Assembly: GCA_021161085.1 (NCBI GenBank)
Contig: JAGHBH010000025.1
Location: 1-11,766, forward strand
Reading direction: 5' to 3'
Length of the DNA stretch: 11,766 nucleotides
Source of the DNA: Thermoplasmata archaeon
Lineage (GTDB): Archaea > Thermoplasmatota > Thermoplasmata > JAGHBH01
Under the pieces are notes generated by a model. It saw only the letters and a list, made by a program, of their open reading frames with translations, searched no databases and was not told the origin of the DNA. Shown piece by piece: positions 550 to 11,536 of this stretch. The translations under genes were made by a program, and so were the position numbers. Numbering within the stretch: the first letter of the stretch is position 1; every line of letters begins with the position of its first letter.

Positions 550-3500
550 CTATCCGAGTTTTATGGCCAGCTTCTTCTTCTGGCCCTTGGAGGCTCCCTG
601 CGAAGAGGCCGTCGGGGGAGTCCCTCCCTCGGGTTTGGCCCCCGCATCCTTACCACCAGCCCCTCCGCTCCCCTCATCCTCGGATATGGGCCTGCCGCAG
701 ACGGGACACACCTTCTTCCGGCCGGCACACGGCACGTGGAACGCCTTGCCGCACTCGCAGATCACGGCCTCCATCCCCACCTTCATCGTGCCGTTGCACA
801 CGCCGCACTTGTCCACGGCCTCCAGCTTCGTCTTCTTGAACATGGGGGCCCTCTTCTCCTTCACGTGGATCACGGTCTCCAGCTCGAAGGGATGCTGTTT
901 TCCATCGACCACGCTGATGTAGTCCCCGGAGATGACCACCTTCACGTCCCCCGGCCTGTCCGCCTTTATCTGTATAGGGATCTGCTCCACCCCTCCCACC
1001 TTCAACAGGGGCACCACATCCAGTCCCTGGACAGCAACACCGGTTATCTTCGGCATGACGTTCTTCCCCAACGCCCTACCGGTGTTCTTCAACACCAATT
1101 CTCCAGAGGCCCACTCTCCGGCAAAAACGTCACCCAGGATAAGCTCGGCCCCTATCCTGGGGGCGTATTCCTCTATCACCCGCTCCGCCTCCTCCTTGGC
1201 GGTCTCCGCCAGGCTCAGAGCCCGCTCCACATCCGAGCCCATCACCTCCCTAGCCTCGGCGATCATGGCCCTGGCCTTCTTGATGTCTATGCCGATCTTC
1301 CTCGCCTTGTCTATCAACGACTCGGCGGCCAGAAGGGCATCCTCCAGCTCCTTCCTCTCGGACTCCACGTTCGACAGTAGAGACGACGTCTCCTCGGCGA
1401 ACCGGGAAGCCTTCTCGAAATCGTTCTTATCCAGGGCTGCCAGGGCATCCCGCAGTTTCTCCCCCGCCTTGGAAACGTCCACACCCTTGGATTTCGCCTC
1501 CTCCAGGGCCACCTCCACGCTGGATATCTTCTTCCGGATGGTGCTCTTGATCTCGTAGTTCAGCACCACCCTTATCTTGTCTATCATGGCGAAGACCTTG
1601 GAATACTCCCTGGACTCCAGGGCCTTGAGGGTCTCCTGATGGAGATGCTCCGCACGGTCCGTGCTGCCTCCCCACCTCTCCACCTCCTTGAACTCCTCCC
1701 GGACCTCCTCCAGTTTCCCGGCAACGAACTCGTGATACTTCTTCTCCGCCTCGGCCAGGGCCTCCTCGGCGTATTTTCTGGCCTTGGAATACTCCTGGTT
1801 CTTGAACTCGGAGTGTGCGCTGGCCATGATGGACTCCGCACTCTTCACATCCGCTCCCTGGTCCTTGAGAGCCTTCAGCCTCTTCACGGCCTGGAGGATG
1901 AACTCCTTGGTCTCCTCATGGGTCTCTTCAACCAGATGGGCGATCTCTCCCGCCTCGACCGCAAGGCTGAGAGCCTGGACGTAGTCCTTTTCGTTGAACG
2001 CCTTCTCCGCCTTCTCCAAAATGGCCTTGGGCTTGGTAATGGGTATTCCCCTGCTCTCCATGTCCTTCAACTTGTCCTTCGCCCCGTGGATGCCCTCCTC
2101 GGCCATCTTCTGCTGTAGGCTCACCTTCTCCAGGGCCTCCTCGCTCTGCATGGCCAGGTTTAGAGCCTCCTTGTACTTCTTCTCCTCCAGCATCTTCCTG
2201 GCCTGGGAGAGAAGGTCCTCCGACCTGCTGGTGTCCATCTTGTTCTTCACTTTTTCTATGGCCTTCTCGAAGGAGGAAAGAACATCCCGGACCTTCTTCT
2301 CCTGGGCGTCCTCTATGAGGCGCTTGCCAACCTCCAGCTTCCTGAGGGCGTCCTTGTACTTGTTCTCCTTTATCTCGTCTATAGCCTTGTCCAGCATGGC
2401 CAGACCGGCCTTCACGTCGGCCCCCAGGTTCTGGGCGTTGCTTATGAGCGTCTTCAGCTCCTGGACCATGATGACCGCTTTCTGGGAGAGCTCCCGCAGC
2501 TCCTCTATCTGCTCCATCGCCTTCTTGGCGGAAGTGTACGCCTTCCGATACTCCCCCTCCTTGAGGGCCTGCTTGGCCTCCCCTATGAGGGGTTCCATGT
2601 CGTCGGTCTTTATGCCGACCTTCCTCCCCTCCTCCAGGGTCTCGTCAACCCTGTCTATGAGGCTCATTATATGCCCCTCTATGGCCTCCTCCAGGGTCTC
2701 CCTGCACACGGAGGCGAGTTCCGAACTCTCGTGGAACTTCTTCTCCTTCATCAGCTCCTTGGCCTTCTCCAGCGTATCCTTGTAGGATGAGACATCCACG
2801 TTTATCTCCGATGCGACGTTCAGCATCTTCTGCGAGGCCACGATGTTCTTGGCGGCCGCATACTGGGCCTTTATCTTGTTGAGGCTCTCCTTACACGCCT
2901 CGGAGATGGAGACCGCCTTGTCGAACTCCTGGTCCTCCAGGGCCTTCTTCGCCTTGACCAGTATCTTGGCCACCGGTTTTATATCCACCCCGTCCTTCTT
3001 CGCCTCGGAGATTAGGGCGGCGGCCTCCCGGATGGCATCATAGGCCTCCTGGTGCTTCTCCTTCATCGTATCGGCTATGTCCTTGGCCTCCAGGGCGTGG
3101 GAGATGGCCTCCCTGTACCTGCCCACGGCGAACAGGTCCCTGGCCTTCTCCAGCTCCTCCTTTATACGGGTGATATCCAGTCCCCTTCTCTTGGCCTCTA
3201 TTGCAGACAGCTTGGCGTTGGAGAACGACTCCTCGAAGGCCTCCTTCTCCATCTCCATGGTCCGGGCCAGACAATCTTTGGCCGCTTCGGCGGCGTTCTC
3301 GTAATCTCCCTCCTTCAGCAGCGAGGCGGCCCGGTTGAACGCCGGAAGTATCCTGGCCACCTCCGCCCCTAACTCCTCCAGAGCGGTGATGCCCTCCTCC
3401 ACCTCCTTCAGCACCCTCTCCACCCTCTCCCTCTGGAGCCTGTCCACGGCCTTCTCCGCCTTCTCCATGGTCTTGTAGGCTTCCTCCACCTCCCCCTTGG

Positions 3501-4551
3501 TGAGGGACTCCTCCACATATTCCAATAGCGAGGCGACCTCCCCCTCGTCCGCCACCCCTATGTTGTGGGCCCTGGTCCTTATGAACTCCACATGCTCCAG
3601 AATCTTCGTCCTGAGCATGTCCTCCGCCTTGACTTTGACCTCGTTAGCCGTGGAGAATGCATCCTTGAACTCCTTGTCCTTTGCCGCCTTGATGGCCTTC
3701 TCCAGCATACCGCTGAGATCCCCGGTGTCAACCCCCATCTTCTCCCCCAGGGCCACCAGCACCTCCGCCGTCTCTATGACATCCATCACCTTCTCGTACT
3801 CGGCCTTCTCTATCTTCTCCCTGCTCTTGTTTATCAGCTGGAGAGCCTTCTGGAAATTCATGGCCTCGAGAGAGCTTCTGGCTTCCTCCACCAGCTTCTC
3901 CGAGAACGTGGTGTCTATACCCAGCTCCGATGCAACACCCAGATTCTCCTCCACCTGCTCCAGCCCCTTCTCCGCCTTCTGGAACTCCCCCACCAGGCGC
4001 TCTATCATCTCGTCCCCCTTCCTGGCGTACTCTATGGACTTCTTGTACTCTCCCCGGCGAAGGGCGTCCCTGGCCTGGTTCAACACCTTGAGGGGCTCGC
4101 TTATATCCGCCCCTATGGCCTTCGCCTTCAGGAAGTTGCCCCTGGACTCGGAGATTATCTTCAGGACGGTCTGGAAACAGGCGTTACCTATCTCCTCCTT
4201 CGCCGCATCCAGAAGTTCGAAAGCCCTGGAGAAATCCCTGTCCCTGGCGGCCTTCCTGGCGTCGGATAGGAGATTCCGGGTATCCTTCACCTCCGCCCCT
4301 ATCTCCTCCCCCTCCTTCACCTTCCCCTCGAGATCCTTCACCCTATCCAATATGACGTCGGAGATCTCGCTGTACGCCCCCTCTCTGGCCAGATCGGCCT
4401 CCTTGATGGCGTTCAGATAATCCGCCGCATCCACAAGGGCTTCGGCGTTGCGCATGTGATCCGTGGTCTTGGAGAGGTCGATCCCATGTTCGTCCGCCAG
4501 ATCAAGGATCTTCTTGACCTCCTCGGTCATGGCCCCGACCCTGTCGGCCAC
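550..4551 (-). CDS. Giant helical-repeat protein with Ig-like domain and C-terminal RING/PHD-like zinc module (3' part of a split gene)
   Basis: This is a frame of 1333 codons; residues are numbered from the GTG at 4551. Residues about 1-1128 are highly charged, Ala/Glu/Lys/Leu-rich helix with 18 tandem repeats. Their conserved turn (LG-V/I/A-D-V/I-S type) lies at 22, 84, 146, 210, 272, 331, 394, 456, 520, 583, 645, 709, 772, 834, 898, 960, 1022 and 1086. Residues about 1130-1232 look like an Ig-like or CARDB-type beta sandwich (GELVLKNTGRALGKNV, IQIKADRPGDVKVVISGDY). Residues 1249-1285 give C-x2-C-x12-C-x-C-x4-H-x2-C-x6-C-x2-C, a C4HC3 cross-brace-like zinc module. A Gly/Pro/Ser-rich linker and a basic tail (QKKKLAIKLG) end the protein. 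No signal peptide or membrane helix is seen, so it is probably cytoplasmic. The frame is open up to a TAA at 4569. GTG 4551 is the outermost start, but the ATG at 4530, which overlaps the upstream stop as ATGA, is the better independent start. Periodicity says it was once continuous with the gene at 4527-5183. The function is unknown; a scaffold or tether is an inference. Confidence 0.85.
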   Translation of the reverse strand: MADRVGAMTEEVKKILDLADEHGIDLSKTTDHMRNAEALVDAADYLNAIKEADLAREGAYSEISDVILDRVKDLEGKVKEGEEIGAEVKDTRNLLSDARKAARDRDFSRAFELLDAAKEEIGNACFQTVLKIISESRGNFLKAKAIGADISEPLKVLNQARDALRRGEYKKSIEYARKGDEMIERLVGEFQKAEKGLEQVEENLGVASELGIDTTFSEKLVEEARSSLEAMNFQKALQLINKSREKIEKAEYEKVMDVIETAEVLVALGEKMGVDTGDLSGMLEKAIKAAKDKEFKDAFSTANEVKVKAEDMLRTKILEHVEFIRTRAHNIGVADEGEVASLLEYVEESLTKGEVEEAYKTMEKAEKAVDRLQRERVERVLKEVEEGITALEELGAEVARILPAFNRAASLLKEGDYENAAEAAKDCLARTMEMEKEAFEESFSNAKLSAIEAKRRGLDITRIKEELEKARDLFAVGRYREAISHALEAKDIADTMKEKHQEAYDAIREAAALISEAKKDGVDIKPVAKILVKAKKALEDQEFDKAVSISEACKESLNKIKAQYAAAKNIVASQKMLNVASEINVDVSSYKDTLEKAKELMKEKKFHESSELASVCRETLEEAIEGHIMSLIDRVDETLEEGRKVGIKTDDMEPLIGEAKQALKEGEYRKAYTSAKKAMEQIEELRELSQKAVIMVQELKTLISNAQNLGADVKAGLAMLDKAIDEIKENKYKDALRKLEVGKRLIEDAQEKKVRDVLSSFEKAIEKVKNKMDTSRSEDLLSQARKMLEEKKYKEALNLAMQSEEALEKVSLQQKMAEEGIHGAKDKLKDMESRGIPITKPKAILEKAEKAFNEKDYVQALSLAVEAGEIAHLVEETHEETKEFILQAVKRLKALKDQGADVKSAESIMASAHSEFKNQEYSKARKYAEEALAEAEKKYHEFVAGKLEEVREEFKEVERWGGSTDRAEHLHQETLKALESREYSKVFAMIDKIRVVLNYEIKSTIRKKISSVEVALEEAKSKGVDVSKAGEKLRDALAALDKNDFEKASRFAEETSSLLSNVESERKELEDALLAAESLIDKARKIGIDIKKARAMIAEAREVMGSDVERALSLAETAKEEAERVIEEYAPRIGAELILGDVFAGEWASGELVLKNTGRALGKNVMPKITGVAVQGLDVVPLLKVGGVEQIPIQIKADRPGDVKVVISGDYISVVDGKQHPFELETVIHVKEKRAPMFKKTKLEAVDKCGVCNGTMKVGMEAVICECGKAFHVPCAGRKKVCPVCGRPISEDEGSGGAGGKDAGAKPEGGTPPTASSQGASKGQKKKLAIKLG

Positions 4552-5048
4552 CTTGGAAGCCAGCAGTTAACGCTCTCCCCCAGCTTGTCCAGGGCCTTCT
4601 TGTAATCCCCGGCGTCAGAGGCCTCCCTGGCCTCCTGGAAGAGCTCCTCCGCCGTGGAAACGTCCTCTCCCATCTCCTTGAGCTTCACCATCAGGCTCTG
4701 GGCCTCCGAGAACGCACCGGATATCCTCTCCTGGAGAACCCGCTCCGCCTCGGACCACGCACTCCTCACCTTCTTGACCAGATCTCCCAAGGGCGCCTCT
4801 TTCTCCAGGGCCTCCTTCGTCTCCTTCAGAAGACGCTCGGCCTTCTCCGTGTTTGCCCCCATGTTCCTTGAAAGCTCTATGACCTCCTCGGAGGCGGATA
4901 TCATGTCGTCCAGCTGGGCAACCTTGGCCTTTTCCAGCGCCTCCCGGAGTTTCTTCATCTCCCCCAGTGCGTCCCCGTATTCCTTGGCGGACATGAGCTC
5001 CTTGACCTTCTTGTGATACTCCCTGGCCTCGGAGATATCCAGATCCGC
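1164..5048 (-). repeat. About 21 tandem 62-residue helical repeats encoded across the two split frames
   Basis: Aligning the translation on the turn motif (G-V/I/A-D-V/I-S/K) gives 3 repeats in the upstream frame and 18 in the downstream frame. In the downstream frame the spacings are 62, 62, 64, 62, 59, 63, 62, 64, 63, 62, 64, 63, 62, 64, 62, 62 and 64 residues; in the upstream frame they are 62 and 63. A typical unit is: helix ending in AKxxG, a V-D-V-S turn, then AxxLLxKAxxAL, then a TPR-like EYxKALxxAxxA helix that runs on into the next unit. DNA identity between units is low, so these are old, diverged protein repeats rather than recent DNA duplications. The fold is probably a solenoid or spectrin-like chain (inference). 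Confidence 0.85.
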
Positions 5049-5183
5049 CTTCTCGTACTCTACCAGCAGCCCCTCTAGAGCCCCCAGTTCCTCCTCCGCC
5101 TTCTTACGGTTCTCGGCCTCTTTCTTGGCCTTCTCCTCCAACTTCTTCTGGAGCTGGAGGGCCTTGAGGTAGCTTGCGCCCAA
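4527..5183 (-). CDS. Giant helical-repeat protein, N-terminal part (5' part of a split gene)
   Basis: The frame encodes a highly charged helical protein of about 218 residues. It opens with a Lys/Glu-rich coiled coil (LQKKLEEKAKKEAENRKKAEEE), then has three of the roughly 62-residue repeats, with turn motifs ADLDIS, MGANTE and MGEDVS. The last 12 codons (CWLPRWPTGSGP) do not fit the repeat pattern and are read out of frame after a missing base, so the natural product probably continues into the frame at 550-4551. The frame could begin at GTG 5192, but that GTG lies inside a GAGGTGA ribosome-binding motif (5195-5189). TTG at 5183 sits 5 nt behind the motif and is preferred. The TGA stop overlaps an ATG of the downstream frame (ATGA at 4530-4527), so if the split is real the two would be translationally coupled. 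Low complexity makes homology-based naming unsafe. Confidence 0.75.
   Translation of the reverse strand: MGASYLKALQLQKKLEEKAKKEAENRKKAEEELGALEGLLVEYEKADLDISEAREYHKKVKELMSAKEYGDALGEMKKLREALEKAKVAQLDDMISASEEVIELSRNMGANTEKAERLLKETKEALEKEAPLGDLVKKVRSAWSEAERVLQERISGAFSEAQSLMVKLKEMGEDVSTAEELFQEAREASDAGDYKKALDKLGESVNCWLPRWPTGSGP
4566..4569 (-). other. Frameshift junction between the two halves of the repeat gene
   Basis: The upstream frame reads GAG AGC GTT AAC TGC and then an out-of-character Trp/Pro-rich tail (CWLPRWPTGSGP) to the TGA at 4529-4527. The downstream frame opens right after TAA 4569-4567 with CTG CTG GCT TCC AAG (LLASK), which continues the repeat helix. Adding one base after GTT-AA joins them as ESV-(N/K)-LLASK. 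The distance between flanking turn motifs then becomes 62 residues, exactly the repeat period. No slippery heptamer is present and a -1 slip at GTT would hit TAA, so an indel, biological or a sequencing error, is favoured over programmed frameshifting. Confidence 0.8.
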
Positions 5184-5188
5184 TCTCT

Positions 5189-5195
5189 TCACCTC
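5189..5195 (-). promoter_or_regulatory. Ribosome binding site of the repeat-protein gene
   Basis: Minus-strand GAGGTGA matches the archaeal anti-Shine-Dalgarno complement and stands 5 nt before TTG 5183. It contains GTG 5192, which would otherwise be taken as the start codon. It argues for a TTG start. Confidence 0.6.
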
Positions 5196-5386: not shown

Positions 5387-5421
5387 GGCTCTTTTACTGG
5401 CAAATCACTGGCTCCTTTACT
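5387..5421. repeat. Pair of 12-nt direct repeats upstream of the leader promoter
   Basis: GGCTCTTTTACT (5387-5398) and GGCTCCTTTACT (5410-5421) are identical except for one base and start 23 nt apart, about two helical turns. The right copy includes the TAG stop of the zinc-ribbon gene. They lie about 20-60 nt upstream of the TATA box for the minus-strand operon, a place where an activator could bind (inference). Confidence 0.45.
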
Positions 5422-6175
5422 ATGAGAATATTCTGGCCACGGCCCCCCTCATACCCTTCAGCTTATCCAGGTCGCCGTCCCATTCCTCCAGGGCATCCCC
5501 GTATCTCTCCTCTATCTCCCTTACCCCCTCCCTGAGCCTCCGCCTTATCTCCTCCTTGTACATCCCTTCCCCACTGGCCACGGCCGCTATCATCAGGTAC
5601 TTTCCCCTCTCCAGCATCAACTTCTTCTCCCCGGCATCTATGGATTCCAGTTCCACCGAAGCCAGGGGCGAGAAAGCGGTCTTCACGAAATCTCTTATCG
5701 CTATGAGCATCCCGGCCAGCAGATCCTCGTCCAGATCCACGCTCTTCTTTTTGGTGCAGCTTGCCACCAGCAGCCCGCCCTTGTACATCACGAACACATC
5801 ATCCAAGAGGTCGTCCGACAGGCGACCCACCGGGTCCTTGGCCACCTCCACGCTCCTGCGGAAGTCCAACCACGCCTTGAACTCGTCCATCCCAGGATGG
5901 GACAGCTCCTCCAGCTCGCCCCGGTCCAGCCATACGCCTCCACACCCGGTGCAGTGGTCCACCTCCACACCCCTAAGTATGAGGATGGACATGGGAGACC
6001 CGCACAGGGGACAGGAGAGTATTCTCTTGTCGGAGGGAGAGATACCCGCCAGCGACTCCAGTTCCCCCCTGTCCAGCCATATCCCCCCGCAGGATACGCA
6101 CTGGTCCACCTCCACGCCCTCCCTAATATAGGTCTTCATCTCCCTGCCGCATATGGGACATTTGACCACTCTCAC
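5420..6175 (-). CDS. Double zinc-ribbon (zf-TFIIB-like) protein with C-terminal alpha/beta domain
   Basis: The protein has 251 residues. Two consecutive zf-TFIIB-type ribbons are clear. The first has C6, C9, C26 and C29 followed by GGIWLDRGELE; the second has C55, C58, C75 and C78 followed by GGVWLDRGELE. The shared GVEVD-x-C-x2-CGG-x-WLDRGEL signature is diagnostic of this ribbon family, which is usually of unknown function. A linker follows, then an alpha/beta domain at about 125-251 (MYKGGLLVASCTKKKSVDLDEDLLAGMLIAI, written here only as its start and end: MYKGGLLVAS and DEDLLAGMLIAI, then EERYGDALEEWDGDLD). That domain resembles one seen in archaeal signalling proteins, possibly roadblock/longin-like; this part is tentative. 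There is no signal peptide or membrane helix, so it is cytosolic. The start is GTG 6175, overlapping the stop of the beta-helix gene (GTGA) and preceded by a GGGAGGGTGG-rich ribosome binding region. Translational coupling suggests it works with the surface protein, perhaps as a regulator or adaptor (inference). Confidence 0.8.
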   Translation of the reverse strand: MRVVKCPICGREMKTYIREGVEVDQCVSCGGIWLDRGELESLAGISPSDKRILSCPLCGSPMSILILRGVEVDHCTGCGGVWLDRGELEELSHPGMDEFKAWLDFRRSVEVAKDPVGRLSDDLLDDVFVMYKGGLLVASCTKKKSVDLDEDLLAGMLIAIRDFVKTAFSPLASVELESIDAGEKKLMLERGKYLMIAAVASGEGMYKEEIRRRLREGVREIEERYGDALEEWDGDLDKLKGMRGAVARIFS

Positions 6176-9100
6176 GGTTCCACCCTCCCGGATATACCAC
6201 GACCACCGTAAAACCCTTCCGGAGCGTTAAATTTCCCTCCGACCCCACGATAGACCAGGACCACGGCGGCCAGGGAGACGACCCCGGGAGCCAGCAGCCA
6301 GACCGCCGGTATATAGGAGAGGGACCACAGGAGGAAGAGAGCGAGACCAGAGAGCATCACCCCCAGCCAGACCGCCGGGTTCCAGGACAGCATCCTCCTC
6401 CCCTCCAGCGGGTCCACTGGAAGGGAATCCACCACCATGAGCATGAGGGAGAGGGATATACCGAATCCTCCGGCCGTCCTCCAGAAGCCATCCGACATAT
6501 AGAGGGGGGCAAACATCAGCAGGAGGAGGGGGGCGGAGAGCACCTTGATCAGGGCGGAAGCACCCCTGGCCTCCACGCTGCCGGAGGTCTTGGTCTTGCC
6601 CGGAGATCCGAAGGGGGAGGAGAACAGGAGGGATGTCAGCAGAAGCATCAGCAGGCCGAAGGGCCAGAGGGAGAAGCCCCCGCCGCCGCCCAGCCTCCTC
6701 ACGGTACGGGCCTCCAGAGTTTCCATGACCAGCACTATCACCACCGTGGGAAGAAGGGCCGCCGCCACCAGGAGACCCAGGGCCCCGGAGGAATACCCGC
6801 CGCCGGAGAGGAGGCCCCCGGCGGATGCGGCGGAAAACAGGGACAGGGCCAACACGCCGATCGTCATTCCCATGTATCCGCCCAGACCCCGCCGCCGACG
6901 TTCCATGTCGAACATCCTCTCCTCGGCATATTCGCCCAGCCCGTCGGAGATACCTCCACCGCCGACGTAGGCACCCAGGCCGGCGCCAGCCAGTGCCACG
7001 ACACTTCCGAGAATCATGCTGCCCACCACGCTGGCGGGGGCGGATGCCGTGTTGGAGACGAAGACCGTTATCTCCCTTGTCACGTTGACACCAAGGGTGG
7101 TGTTGTATCCCGACGCCTCTATGGTGGCCTCGCCCCTTGTCCCGGAGGTATCCCATTCCGCATGAAAAACGCCTCCCGTGGGGCTGCCGGAGGCCACAAG
7201 CTCCCTCTTGCCGCCGTTATCCCAGGTGACGTATACCTCCACCCTGTCTATAACCGGTGAACATTTGACGGTGAACGAGAGGAGGCCGGTGACGGTCTCG
7301 CCGTCGCTGATGCCCAGGAAATCCAGCACCAGGGAGGATGGCTCCATGAGTCCGGGTCTCCTGTGGAGGACTATCCGGACGGTCATATCCTTTTCCACGT
7401 CCACGGTGATGTTCCCCTCCAGGTCGCCCAGGGATGCGGTGAAGTTGTGGGGAGAGAGCGGGGTCTCCCCCTGGGAGGAGAACTCCACGGTCAGGAGAGG
7501 CAGGGGGCCCACACGGCCGTTCTCGTCGGCCGTCCCCAAAAAGAGGGTTTCACCCAGAAGGTCCGTGGCGTTGACCGCCGCCCCCTCCGCGGCCGTGCCG
7601 TTCTCGTCCTCCACCTCCACGGCGACCCACCATCCCACCCAGACCCTGGAAGAGGTGTCGTTGAAATACATGCTGGCCCGGTCGAAGATGGTGCTTATGA
7701 AAACGGGTTCCGAGCCGTTGCCCGCCCAGATGTCGTATTCGCCGGAATCCGCTATGGAGGAGTTGTAGATGTGGGGCTGGCTGACATCCCTGACGTATAT
7801 GCCGTAGGAGCCGGAGGTGTTGACCGTGCAGCCGTCTATGAGGGGGGAGGCGCCGTCGGCTATGAAAACCCCCACGACCCCGGAGTCCCGGACGGTCACG
7901 TTGCGGAACACGGGTGTGGAGGGTAAGAAAGCCGCTATGCCGGAGACGTCGTTGCCCTCGACCATGCCGCCCGTGATCTCCACCGAACCCTGGGATAACA
8001 GCTGTGTCTTGATGCCGTTCTCCCCGTTCCCCAGGAACAAGCCTCCCGTGGACCTCACCGAGGCGTAGTTGAGGACGAAAAGGCCGTTTCCCGTGTTGCC
8101 GCCCGAAACGGAGTCCATCATATCCAGCTCCGCACCGTCCTGGACCTCGATGCCGTCCTGCGCGTTGCCCCAGACCGCCCCGTCCAGCATGTCCAGTTCC
8201 GAGTTGTCGTAGAGGATGACGCCGTAGTCGCCGTTGAAGGAGATGTTGTCCCCGGTGGACGTGGCCCGGGCGTAGTCCCTCATGGCCAGACCCTTATCAT
8301 CGTTGGACAGGATGACATTGTCCTCCATCACCGTCCTCGAGTGGTATGAGAGAAGGACGCCCACGTTCCCGCTGCCTTCCACCCTGGAGCCTTTTACGGA
8401 GCACTCCACGTAGTCCTGTACCTCTATGCCGTTTCTGGAGTTGGAGAGGATGCTGCAGTTCAGCACGGAAAACGTGGCGTTCAGGGAGGCTATTATTCCG
8501 TTGCGGCCGCTGCCCGTTATCGTCACGCTCTCCAGAAACGTCTGGCTGTCCTGCTGGCACAGGACCCCGTCGTTGGCGTTGCCGTCCAAGAGCACGGAGA
8601 CCGCCGTCATGTAAGCGGAGCCTACGGCGGACAGACCGTTGCGGCCGTTGAAGGATGAAGAGCCGTTGAACACCTCGGCCCGTGAATCGTACTTGACCGC
8701 CACGCCGTCCCGGGTGTTGGAGGACATGGTGCACGACTCCAGCCTCATGAAGCCCGAATCGCCCCCGTAGGCGCCGTTCCAGCCGTTGCCGTGGAAGGAG
8801 GAGGAGAGGGCGAACACACGAGATGAGCCCAGGGCCTCAAGGCCGTCGTAGGCGTTGTCGTGGATGTCCGTTGAGTTGACGAACATGGTGGTGTTGTCCC
8901 ATGCCACTATACCGTAGGTGTTGTTGTATATCTCGCAGTCCTCCAGGGTGACCAGGGAGTCGCCGGCCCCGCCCACCGCCGCCCCGTATAGGGTGTTTCC
9001 GTAGAGGGAGGATGAGACCAGGGTGAGGGTTCCCCCGGTGGCGTGTATGCCGTTGAGATGCAGTCCGGTTATCCGGCATTTCTCCAGTTCCACCTCGCCC

Positions 9101-9486
9101 CGGGTGTCGAATACGTAGAAGAAGTTGTCCCGGTACTGGGCGAAGGTGGAGTTGAAGCCCCTCAGAACGCCCCCTTCCACGAATATGCCGTGCTGTCCCG
9201 GGTATGCACAGTCTATGAAGAGGGAAGAGTTCAGTAGGGTCAGGGATCCGGCTTCTGTTATCCTGAGGTCGCCCCGGAGGATTATTGTCTGGTTCTCTAT
9301 GACCGTGGTGTCGGATATTATCCAGTCCCCCGCCAGCGGAGGAGGGGTTTGAGCGTAGGATATGGGGATGAAGAGTTGGAAAAGAAGGAAAAAGAGCAGC
9401 ATGAGGGCGGGTAGGGAGATATTGGAGAAGGGTGGTTTGAGAATATGAAACCGAGGTTTTGATATGTGCCATCTCACATATTTCAC
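6172..9486 (-). CDS. Secreted right-handed beta-helix protein with Ig-like domain and polytopic C-terminal membrane anchor
   Basis: The protein has 1104 residues. A signal peptide or N-terminal anchor is seen (hydrophobic at about 25-43, ISYA then QTPPP, possible cleavage after A45). Residues about 50-610 are parallel beta-helix repeats of the PbH1/NosD-pectate-lyase type, with turns such as NGIHATGG, YGIVAWDN, DGLEALGS and NGIEVQD. Many Asn-X-Ser/Thr sites fit an exported archaeal glycoprotein. A carboxypeptidase-regulatory-like segment follows at about 612-700 (EDENGTAAEGAAVNATD), then an Ig-like domain at about 720-808. Hydrophobic helices come next at roughly 819-841, 871-889, 901-921, 937-957, 976-994, 1005-1020, 1036-1056 and 1059-1078. 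The beta-helix should be outside the cell, perhaps binding or cleaving polysaccharide or forming surface structure; no catalytic residues could be assigned. Start: GTG 9486 follows AGGTGA (9496-9491) by 4 nt, and GTG 9477 is an alternative. It heads an operon with the zinc-ribbon gene. Confidence 0.85.
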   Translation of the reverse strand: MKYVRWHISKPRFHILKPPFSNISLPALMLLFFLLFQLFIPISYAQTPPPLAGDWIISDTTVIENQTIILRGDLRITEAGSLTLLNSSLFIDCAYPGQHGIFVEGGVLRGFNSTFAQYRDNFFYVFDTRGEVELEKCRITGLHLNGIHATGGTLTLVSSSLYGNTLYGAAVGGAGDSLVTLEDCEIYNNTYGIVAWDNTTMFVNSTDIHDNAYDGLEALGSSRVFALSSSFHGNGWNGAYGGDSGFMRLESCTMSSNTRDGVAVKYDSRAEVFNGSSSFNGRNGLSAVGSAYMTAVSVLLDGNANDGVLCQQDSQTFLESVTITGSGRNGIIASLNATFSVLNCSILSNSRNGIEVQDYVECSVKGSRVEGSGNVGVLLSYHSRTVMEDNVILSNDDKGLAMRDYARATSTGDNISFNGDYGVILYDNSELDMLDGAVWGNAQDGIEVQDGAELDMMDSVSGGNTGNGLFVLNYASVRSTGGLFLGNGENGIKTQLLSQGSVEITGGMVEGNDVSGIAAFLPSTPVFRNVTVRDSGVVGVFIADGASPLIDGCTVNTSGSYGIYVRDVSQPHIYNSSIADSGEYDIWAGNGSEPVFISTIFDRASMYFNDTSSRVWVGWWVAVEVEDENGTAAEGAAVNATDLLGETLFLGTADENGRVGPLPLLTVEFSSQGETPLSPHNFTASLGDLEGNITVDVEKDMTVRIVLHRRPGLMEPSSLVLDFLGISDGETVTGLLSFTVKCSPVIDRVEVYVTWDNGGKRELVASGSPTGGVFHAEWDTSGTRGEATIEASGYNTTLGVNVTREITVFVSNTASAPASVVGSMILGSVVALAGAGLGAYVGGGGISDGLGEYAEERMFDMERRRRGLGGYMGMTIGVLALSLFSAASAGGLLSGGGYSSGALGLLVAAALLPTVVIVLVMETLEARTVRRLGGGGGFSLWPFGLLMLLLTSLLFSSPFGSPGKTKTSGSVEARGASALIKVLSAPLLLLMFAPLYMSDGFWRTAGGFGISLSLMLMVVDSLPVDPLEGRRMLSWNPAVWLGVMLSGLALFLLWSLSYIPAVWLLAPGVVSLAAVVLVYRGVGGKFNAPEGFYGGRGISGRVEP

Positions 9487-10552: not shown

Positions 10553-11536
10553 ATGAACTCCCTGGTGAAATTGAAAGGCAGCATGGTCCTCACACTGGCC
10601 CTCATGTTCGGGCTGCTGTTCGGAATGGTGTCCATACTGGGCTTTTTCTATTCCTCTCCCCCCATATTCTTCTTCATCCTGGCCCTGGTCATCGTCCTCA
10701 TCCAGTGGGCGGTGGGGCCCAGCGTGGTCAGGCTCTCCACGAAACCGAGATATATCCAGAAGGGAGAGATGCCCTGGCTGGAGATGACGGTCGCCGAGCT
10801 CTCCCGCCAGGCCGGTGTCCCGGAGCCCAGAATAGCGGTGGTGGAAAACCCGGAGCCCAACGCCTTCGTCTTCGGAAGGACGACAAAGAGCGCCACCCTG
10901 GCCGTTCACACCGGACTGCTGGAACGCCTTACCCGGGAGGAGGTCAAGGCGGTAATAGGGCACGAGCTGGGACACCTCAAGCACAAGGATGTGGTGGTCA
11001 TCACCGCCATAAGCGTCATACCCCTCCTGGCCTTCCTGGCTTCCAGGTTCCTGCTCTGGGGCGGCGTCCTGGGCAGGAGGAGGGACAGCGGCGTCATGAT
11101 ACTCGCAGGTCTGTTCTTTCTGGTCATCTATTTCATCGGCCAGCTTATAATACTCCATCTATCCAGGCTGAGGGAGTACTACGCCGACGCCTTCTCCGCC
11201 GAGATAACCGGCAGACCCATGGACCTTGCCAGCGCCCTCTCCAAGATAACCTTCGGCCTCTCCATATCCAAGGAATCCCACAGCGTGGCAAGGTCGTTCT
11301 ACATAGGGGATCCGGAGACCGCAAAGAAGGAGGTCGCCGGCATACTACGCAACCCCCACGAATACGACCTGAACGGTGACGGTGTTCTGGACCAGAGGGA
11401 ACTGGAACTGGCCCTGGAGAAGGAGGCGGAAAAACACAGGAAATCCCGACTGCTGACCCTCTTCTCCACCCACCCCCCCACCTACGCCAGGATAAAAGCC
11501 CTGAAACAGCTGGAACAGGAGATGCGGGGATACTGA
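10553..11536 (+). CDS. htpX: HtpX-like M48 membrane metalloprotease with EF-hand loop
   Basis: The protein has 327 residues. Two N-terminal membrane helices (about 11-31 and 36-55) are followed by the zinc protease domain with HELGH at 137-141 (ligands H137 and H141, catalytic E138) and the third ligand E208 in LREYYADAFS. Two further hydrophobic segments lie at about 147-170 and 181-203, and STHPP near 305-309 is the typical HtpX C-terminal motif. HtpX enzymes degrade misfolded membrane proteins, with the active site facing the cytoplasm. Unusually, residues 272-283 (DLNGDGVLDQRE) are a canonical EF-hand calcium loop with ligands at positions 1, 3, 5, 7, 9 and 12, followed by a helix rich in Glu and Lys. 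The frame is open far upstream inside thi4, but ATG 10553, 5 nt after the thi4 stop with GGGGAG about 10 nt before it, is the natural start. Co-transcription with thi4 looks likely; a functional link is not evident. Confidence 0.92.
   Translation: MNSLVKLKGSMVLTLALMFGLLFGMVSILGFFYSSPPIFFFILALVIVLIQWAVGPSVVRLSTKPRYIQKGEMPWLEMTVAELSRQAGVPEPRIAVVENPEPNAFVFGRTTKSATLAVHTGLLERLTREEVKAVIGHELGHLKHKDVVVITAISVIPLLAFLASRFLLWGGVLGRRRDSGVMILAGLFFLVIYFIGQLIILHLSRLREYYADAFSAEITGRPMDLASALSKITFGLSISKESHSVARSFYIGDPETAKKEVAGILRNPHEYDLNGDGVLDQRELELALEKEAEKHRKSRLLTLFSTHPPTYARIKALKQLEQEMRGY

Follow-up and report, generated by a model that had tools for sequence, protein, structure and literature searches.

A class-wide giant protein of Thermoplasmata that joins a helical-repeat array to a RING-like zinc module, and its gene context beside smc-scpA-scpB in one clade

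The minus strand of contig JAGHBH010000025.1 (GenBank assembly GCA_021161085.1), a stretch of 11,766 nucleotides from a Thermoplasmata archaeon that is referred to here as the window, carries at about 550-5192 a giant gene whose product combines a long array of helical repeats with an immunoglobulin (Ig)-like domain and a zinc module, and it raises the question of what such a protein might do. Sequence firmly establishes both architecture and family, but not what the protein does. Known modules, namely helical repeats, a CARDB-like Ig domain and a zinc finger of the Prok-RING_1 type, are combined in a giant protein that is found across the class and is unmatched to any named family. An initial annotation had been reminded of scaffolds or ubiquitin-ligase-like proteins. 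Because the gene lies directly behind smc-scpA-scpB in many relatives, a chromosome-linked scaffold appears more likely than a dedicated ubiquitin ligase, and the reading favoured here, though held tentatively, is that of a cytosolic scaffold, a long-reach adaptor of the chromosome machinery that is tied to SMC-kleisin in at least one clade. The parts of the gene are as follows.

550-4551, minus strand: main open frame, 1333 residues from GTG (1338 as P0001), with repeats, Ig-like domain, zinc module and tail.
4527-5192, minus strand: N-terminal part of the giant gene in another frame, 221 residues (P0002), with the conserved start SYLKALQLxKxLEEKAKK and about three repeats.
1177-4566, minus strand: putative rod, in which a count by eye gives about 18 helical repeats, each 62-64 residues long.
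847-1158, minus strand: probable Ig-like (CARDB/HYDIN-type) domain, about residues 1137-1240 of P0001.
697-807, minus strand, from first to last ligand: C4HC3 RING-like zinc module, residues 1254-1290 of P0001.
553-579, minus strand: lysine-rich C-terminal tail KKKLAIKLG, alike in 12 of 59 members, the window's counted.

The two overlapping open frames cover complementary parts of the family profile, the small one positions 3-203 and the large one positions 208-1499. They are thus the N- and C-terminal parts of one protein, and the giant gene is broken by a frame change in the window contig. The change, which is probably one of a single base, may be genuine or may be an error of an assembly that is 57.6% complete and divided into 191 contigs. 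Among the 60 relative loci fetched, 59 have the gene as a single frame, of about 1450-1600 residues, and only that of L058 is split as well. The gene of L083 is truncated by the contig end, and in L069 (genome G080) a stop stands just ahead of the last cysteine pair, with the profile match continuing past one TGA. The initial annotation treated the region as one protein; it is indeed one gene, with the qualification, missing from that account, that the interval spans two overlapping frames.

The main frame resembles itself most strongly at a lag of 62 residues (z 7.3) and again at 64 (z 5.0), the maximum of 300 shuffles being 4.3, and turns of the type G-[VAIL]-D-[VIT] recur in it at 62-64 residues or about twice that distance. 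The double period of 125-126 reaches only 3.6-4.0 in this frame, not above the shuffled maximum; the N-terminal frame, too short when taken alone, gives 3.4 at lag 63 against a shuffled maximum of 4.2. At lag 62 the relatives L044, L043 and L037 give 9.8, 12.2 and 12.2, and the divergent L052 gives 3.5, under its own shuffled maximum of 4.2. Counted by eye with degenerate turns included, the large frame holds about 18 repeats and the small frame 3. The lag-62 peak and this count bear out the figure of about 21 helical repeats first proposed, and the sequence supports the picture of a long, presumably rod-shaped helical array with a zinc finger at its tip. The family likenesses suggested for the rod fared less well. 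Spectrin repeats are about 106 residues long; the period here is 62, and no Spectrin profile matches the window's own protein, so that spectrin membership is rejected. Membership of the TPR family is likewise rejected: the period is not 34, TPR_12 is matched in one of 59 C-termini, and TPR_18 stays under its cut-off in P0002.

The Ig-like domain proposed by the initial annotation is probable. The window's own match, to a HYDIN-type Ig model, is very weak (E 0.079, under the cut-off); at E<=1e-3, CARDB matches 13 of the 59 relatives. The zinc pattern, C-x2-C-x12-C-x-C-x4-H-x2-C-x6-C-x2-C, is present precisely as first described, and the family follows it with little variation as C-x2-C-x12-C-x(1,2)-C-x4-H-x2-C-x6-C-x2-C. 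Across 59 members, C1-C4 and C6 are invariant (59/59), and the histidine and the last pair are each kept in 58, L069 being the exception for the pair. The variants are a C-x-C end in two f9 members and a spacing of x4 instead of x6 in L090. Similar tails of the type KKK[VL]A[LI]K[ILF] end the 12 members counted above, which belong to several families and have linkers of very different length before the tail.

Comparison with known profiles supports a RING-like finger of the Prok-RING_1 type. At E<=1e-3 that model (PF14446) picks up 44 of the 59 members, with a best value of 1.3e-15, and it is precomputed on 18 of 56 homologues; the same scan of the 59 C-termini gave C1_1 in 7 and zf-RING_2 in 7. 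The window's own module scores 28.4 bits as a 58-residue piece, the cut-off being 29.1, and 20.7 within the 345-residue C-terminus. In a profile search of the PDB, the best zinc-finger matches were two RING-H2 ligases, RNF165 (4.9e-5) and Ark2C (1.4e-4), followed by the C1 domain of Vav (7.4e-4) and the PHD finger of Pygopus (0.021); designed TPR proteins, which match the rod part, outscored the zinc fingers. The order of the ligands is PHD-like and their spacing RING-like. No histidine or cysteine occupies RING position 4 (C-G-H) in the 59 sequences; an extra cysteine before it replaces this ligand and yields the PHD-like order. In PHD fingers C6 and C7 lie 12 or more residues apart. The spacing here is 6 (4 in L090), and the PHD profile is matched in 2 of the 59, so a PHD finger is rejected. 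The "RING/PHD-like" label finds support in the sequence, through the Prok-RING_1 matches and the rank of the RING-H2 ligases. Among loci L146, L140 and L150, the C4HC3 module also appears to occur on a DppF-like ABC ATPase, on a surface protein that has a membrane segment, and on a membrane protein whose C-terminal domain is soluble.

The initial annotation did not recognise the architecture as a named family, and this judgement holds for the whole: no Pfam or NCBIfam model spans the full length, and most database relatives either lack a name or are called hypothetical. Only the zinc and Ig portions belong to known domains. An initial scan of contigs for family members gave no match, and when the C-terminal region from the window was used as single query for homologues, it retrieved its own protein only. 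A 168-residue C-terminal query matched 125 of 200 genomes of the class, with the window's own and zinc-only matches counted; by a longer C-terminal profile, the full C-terminus was coded as present in 91 genomes (own included) and in 20 of 30 family-level groups, over which architecture and length are near-constant. When 5.8 billion proteins were searched with a profile, 56 matched, mostly unnamed or hypothetical, with a few called TPR repeat protein or DUF5915 protein and one VapI; those with an organism name come from Thermoplasmata or Methanomassiliicoccales. Of 292 genomes sampled from the phylum, 28 gave matches, some being from other classes, and two genomes of other classes (G203 and G214) have frames of 3155 and 3198 residues with the identical type of Ig and zinc tip at the end. 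Some of the 56 matches belong to another giant family (P0042-P0047, P0053), whose proteins are about 2,350-2,400 residues long, share the rod and the Ig-like domain and end in DUF5915, an IleRS-type C-terminal domain. A literature search did not meet the protein family; its scope was without the Burroughs 2011 review of prokaryotic RING fingers, so absence from print is not claimed.

It is gene context that gives the scaffold idea a direction. In 20 of the 60 fetched loci, scpA and/or scpB lies directly upstream of the giant gene on the same strand, and in 18 of those smc is on the contig. Measured from one stop-to-stop frame to the next, most gaps from scpB to the giant gene fall at 60-150 bases, that of L057 being 659, and in a further smc-linked case, L135 of f21, the gap is 17 bases. 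Pfam confirmed SMC_N, SMC_hinge and SMC_ScpB on representatives. The ScpA model PF02616 matches ScpA in the same operons (G133, G178, G082, G096), gives no match at threshold for the ScpA of L036 and falls under the cut-off for that of the smc operon of G067; with matches in 53 of 200 genomes, it is too insensitive to serve as a test for the presence of ScpA. The smc-linked members form one clade on the tree, spanning the family-level groups f14, f18, f21, f23, f24 and f27; in L152, within the clade, the contig starts inside the giant gene. When six members of the clade were aligned, five shared 38-43% identity with the first. Since identity is so low, the smc gene order must have been kept over a long divergence. 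A contig search with six members of the clade gave 18 named loci, all but one labelled Thermoplasmata, Thermoplasmatota, Methanomassiliicoccales or Euryarchaeota. The exception, L132, is a family fragment whose contig bears the label Actinobacteria bacterium, which is probably due to a binning error.

The scaffold of the initial annotation is plausible. The alpha-helical rod of about 21 repeats would span distance and bind partners along its length, and the Ig-like domain with the RING-like zinc tip would dock a partner protein. The Smc-ScpA(-ScpB) complex would probably be among the partners in one large clade at least, the giant gene there being apparently co-transcribed with smc-scpA-scpB. 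According to the part of PMC7055376 that was available, archaeal Smc-ScpA works without a bound kite subunit (six ScpAs tested); additional partners of Smc-ScpA are therefore an open question. If the SMC link is true, the giant protein would be a candidate extra subunit of archaeal Smc-kleisin complexes, which reportedly lack a bound kite.

Several facts weigh against a general tie to chromosome machinery. The smc link is limited to the one clade, and within it L041 has neither scpA nor scpB in 1966 bases upstream. Downstream genes are conserved in the clade too: an aromatic-lyase gene directly downstream on the opposite strand, an RNase Z-like gene and a MAT-like gene, so that ordinary synteny may account for part of the gene order. 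Co-occurrence with ScpB is uninformative because ScpB is found in 187 of 200 genomes with or without the giant protein, and in the window genome scpA-scpB lies on a different contig. The protein of L135 (genome G043), a smc-operon member outside the set of 59, ends after the Ig-like domain and has no zinc module. No HEAT or kite domain was matched, the rod scan covering the window's own protein and the C-terminal scan the 59 members. Gene contexts recur inside a family-level group, and between groups none was seen to be shared save the smc clade and, in f9 and f12, a pair of KaiC-like ATPases that adjoin the giant gene. For three of the four f13 loci, the next gene upstream, in the same orientation, is ftsZ; the contig of the fourth (L083) ends at the giant gene.

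Such variation of context from group to group is what a general cytoplasmic scaffold or cytoskeletal rod would show, one that has no special tie to chromosome or ubiquitin and uses its zinc module as a general docking knob, and this alternative is a realistic one. It also gains from the apparent presence of the same module on DppF-like ATPase, surface or transmembrane and zinc-ribbon proteins, and from the way the second giant family joins rod and Ig-like domain to other C-terminal ends. The smc operon, kept over long divergence in six family-level groups, stands against it and for the SMC-linked scaffold.

A different role would follow if the zinc module bound the ubiquitin-conjugating enzyme (E2) of Thermoplasmata and the rod presented substrates, making the protein a RING-type ubiquitin ligase (E3) or E3 scaffold. 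The class does have a ubiquitin-like system. UQ_con (PF00179) finds an E2 over the cut-off in 78 of 200 genomes and a class-specific profile in 77, and in an alignment of 12 E2s both the HPN motif and the catalytic cysteine are retained. When the neighbours of 20 E2 genes were grouped by single linkage, 17 of the loci had an E1-like ThiF protein, 19 had a JAMM protease and 10 had a small ubiquitin-like protein (Ubl); the six Ubl genes read encode 80-91 residues and end in ...PDPEGG plus 0-2 residues. Compact operons of E1-like ThiF, Ubl, E2 and JAMM genes are seen in many Thermoplasmata (L098-L116, e.g. L103:4656-7820). In L103, Pfam gave ThiF at 1.2e-52, UQ_con at 1.8e-13 and JAB at 2e-15, with no match for the Ubl. 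These operons are potentially a bigger finding than the giant protein. A literature search found no report of an E1-Ubl-E2-JAMM operon for Thermoplasmata; its scope was without the supplementary cluster figure of PMC5654768, and absence is not claimed. In the parts of PMC1779556, PMC11354881, PMC10989744 and PMC10936438 that were covered, neither the operon in Thermoplasmata nor the giant family is described.

At family level, co-occurrence does not tie the giant protein to E2. Rows were coded by hand, "giant" meaning a C-terminal profile match from position 45 or before to at least position 300. Coded as present by exception were G162 (match 111-302 in a 258-residue frame) and G170 (167-304 in a 1446-residue frame, full-length by the family profile); G008, G043 and G138, along with the short versions of about 720 residues in G086, G093 and G136, were left out as incomplete, and genomes outside the listing (e.g. 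G071, G108, G154) were coded as absent. Among families, 9 have both, 11 the giant protein only, 7 E2 only and 3 neither (Fisher p=0.26), so that 11 of 20 giant-bearing families are without a detected E2. Among genomes the corresponding counts are 47, 43, 30 and 79 (p=0.0004), and among genomes at least 90% complete 17, 18, 26 and 67 (p=0.036); this raw association is positive, and it is given less weight because genomes of one family are not independent. E2 was not found in the window genome (G000) or in G001, the only other member of its family searched (72% complete), both being incomplete. The giant gene was not seen inside the E2 operons examined.

In the module, a hydrophobic residue at the E2-contact position C1+2, between C1 and C2, is present in 47 of 59 members and a proline after C7 in 42, as an E2-binding RING would have them. 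No tryptophan lies between C6 and C7 (0/59), the K/R linchpin after C8 is found once (1/59), and the position-4 ligand is missing as described above. Families without E2 have a hydrophobic contact residue in 20 of their 21 members, and families with E2 in 27 of their 38, the opposite of what is expected for a module bound to E2.

The one context that speaks for the E3 reading is in f7, where 6 of 8 E2-positive genomes (L066, L071, L074, L078, L090, L097) have a Ubl-E2 fusion next to the giant gene in divergent orientation, at 59-198 bases in five measured cases and about 120 in L097. G125 has the two genes on separate contigs, and in G085 the giant protein was not found. The catalytic cysteine of the fused E2, read by eye, is methionine in three of the six (L071, L074, L097), which counts against this context, and cysteine in the others. 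In genus g35 of the same group (L088, L089, L091), the divergent upstream neighbour appears to be topoisomerase I-like rather than Ubl-E2.

A better candidate for an E3 is a small protein that carries the same C4HC3 module (hhalign 98.5%, E 1.5e-15 over 49 columns) followed by zinc ribbons, the shared module being itself a point for the E3 reading of the giant. Small proteins of this apparent composition are found at L136, L137, L141-L144 and L147-L149, and those of L142 and L148, read by eye, have a hydrophobic segment at the N-terminus. "Small" was coded as a profile match from position 5 or before to at least position 126; G144 and G148, with the later piece only, and weaker rows outside the listing (e.g. 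G009, G018) were coded as lacking it. On this coding, 52 genomes have both the small protein and E2, 4 the small protein only (G034, G060, G087, G123), 25 E2 only and 118 neither; by family the counts are 10, 0, 6 and 14 (p=0.0003). In f6, which is without the giant protein, E2 is found in 12 of 22 genomes, and all 11 that have the small protein are among those 12. The small protein was not seen beside E2 in the loci looked at. Its profile and distribution suggest that it may be an E3-like partner of the E1-Ubl-E2-JAMM operon. Together, operon and small protein open a lineage other than Aigarchaeota and Asgard archaea to tests of how RING-type E3s arose. They also offer a clean comparison of one zinc module in two proteins, where it might act as a ligase in the first and as a docking knob in the second.

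The likeness to a ubiquitin ligase that the initial annotation saw is thus hinted at by the E1-Ubl-E2-JAMM genes of the class and by the adjacency in f7; with no family-level co-occurrence with E2 and without the RING hallmark residues, an E3 role for the whole giant protein is not favoured and seems unlikely. Combining it with the SMC link gives a long shot: a rod-shaped third partner of Smc-ScpA whose RING-like tip would recruit E2 where one is present, a functional, non-homologous prokaryotic counterpart of the subunits that bear a RING in eukaryotic SMC5/6, which would fill the place of the non-binding archaeal kite. The least likely reading takes alpha-COP or Vps11/18 as its model and makes the protein a coat-like scaffold of membrane trafficking; it has for it the same order of helical array and terminal RING-like finger (PMC4678705, in the part covered) and against it a 62-residue repeat, the lack of a beta-propeller match in a Pfam scan of the window's own protein, and the lack of a coat protein among the matches listed.

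Of the other genes in the window, one has a direct bearing on the giant family.

5420-6175, minus strand: upstream neighbour, encoding two TFIIB-type zinc ribbons and a domain that is fused behind rod and Ig-like domain in P0047.

The domain of P0047 and the C-terminal half of this product share 31% identity over 127 residues (E 1e-21). Two neighbouring genes of the window therefore carry modules that are fused in a related giant. At 6172-9486 lies a gene for a 1104-residue right-handed beta-helix (NosD-like) protein with C-terminal hydrophobic segments, and at 10553-11536 one for an HtpX-like M48 protease. Close to the C-terminal end of the protease is an EF-hand-like loop, DLNGDGVLDQREL, for which EF-hand models stay under the cut-off.

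Comparison with known systems places the protein between several of them. The RING E3 srfp of Caldiarchaeum (PMC5654768, in the part available) is likewise an archaeal zinc finger in a class with E1-like, E2, Ubl and JAMM genes, and its mutants I30Q, W58A and R69A are impaired. By that account srfp is a small, operon-encoded RING, whereas the giant protein is without the tryptophan and linchpin and was not seen in E2 operons; the small zinc-ribbon protein tracks E2 better. Alpha-COP and Vps11/18 (PMC4678705, in part) are alike in having an alpha-helical array with a C-terminal RING-like treble clef, but no sequence relation to them was seen and the propeller is unmatched. Five stretches of the rod match the SoxAX-binding protein family (NF052674) with 79.8 bits; this is under the curated cut-off of 95 for a 111-residue model, and may reflect helical composition. 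Prok-RING_1 itself accounts for the zinc module of the family, with its eight zinc ligands, and leaves the rod and the giant size outside the model.

Nse1 links a RING-like finger to an SMC complex, and the eukaryotic hawks are helical-repeat proteins. Measured against such SMC accessory subunits, the kite ScpB, the hawks and Nse1, the giant protein has no HEAT or kite match in the window's own sequence or in the 59 C-termini, and its sequence match to Nse1 is weak (E 0.053). In one clade its gene adjoins smc-scpAB.

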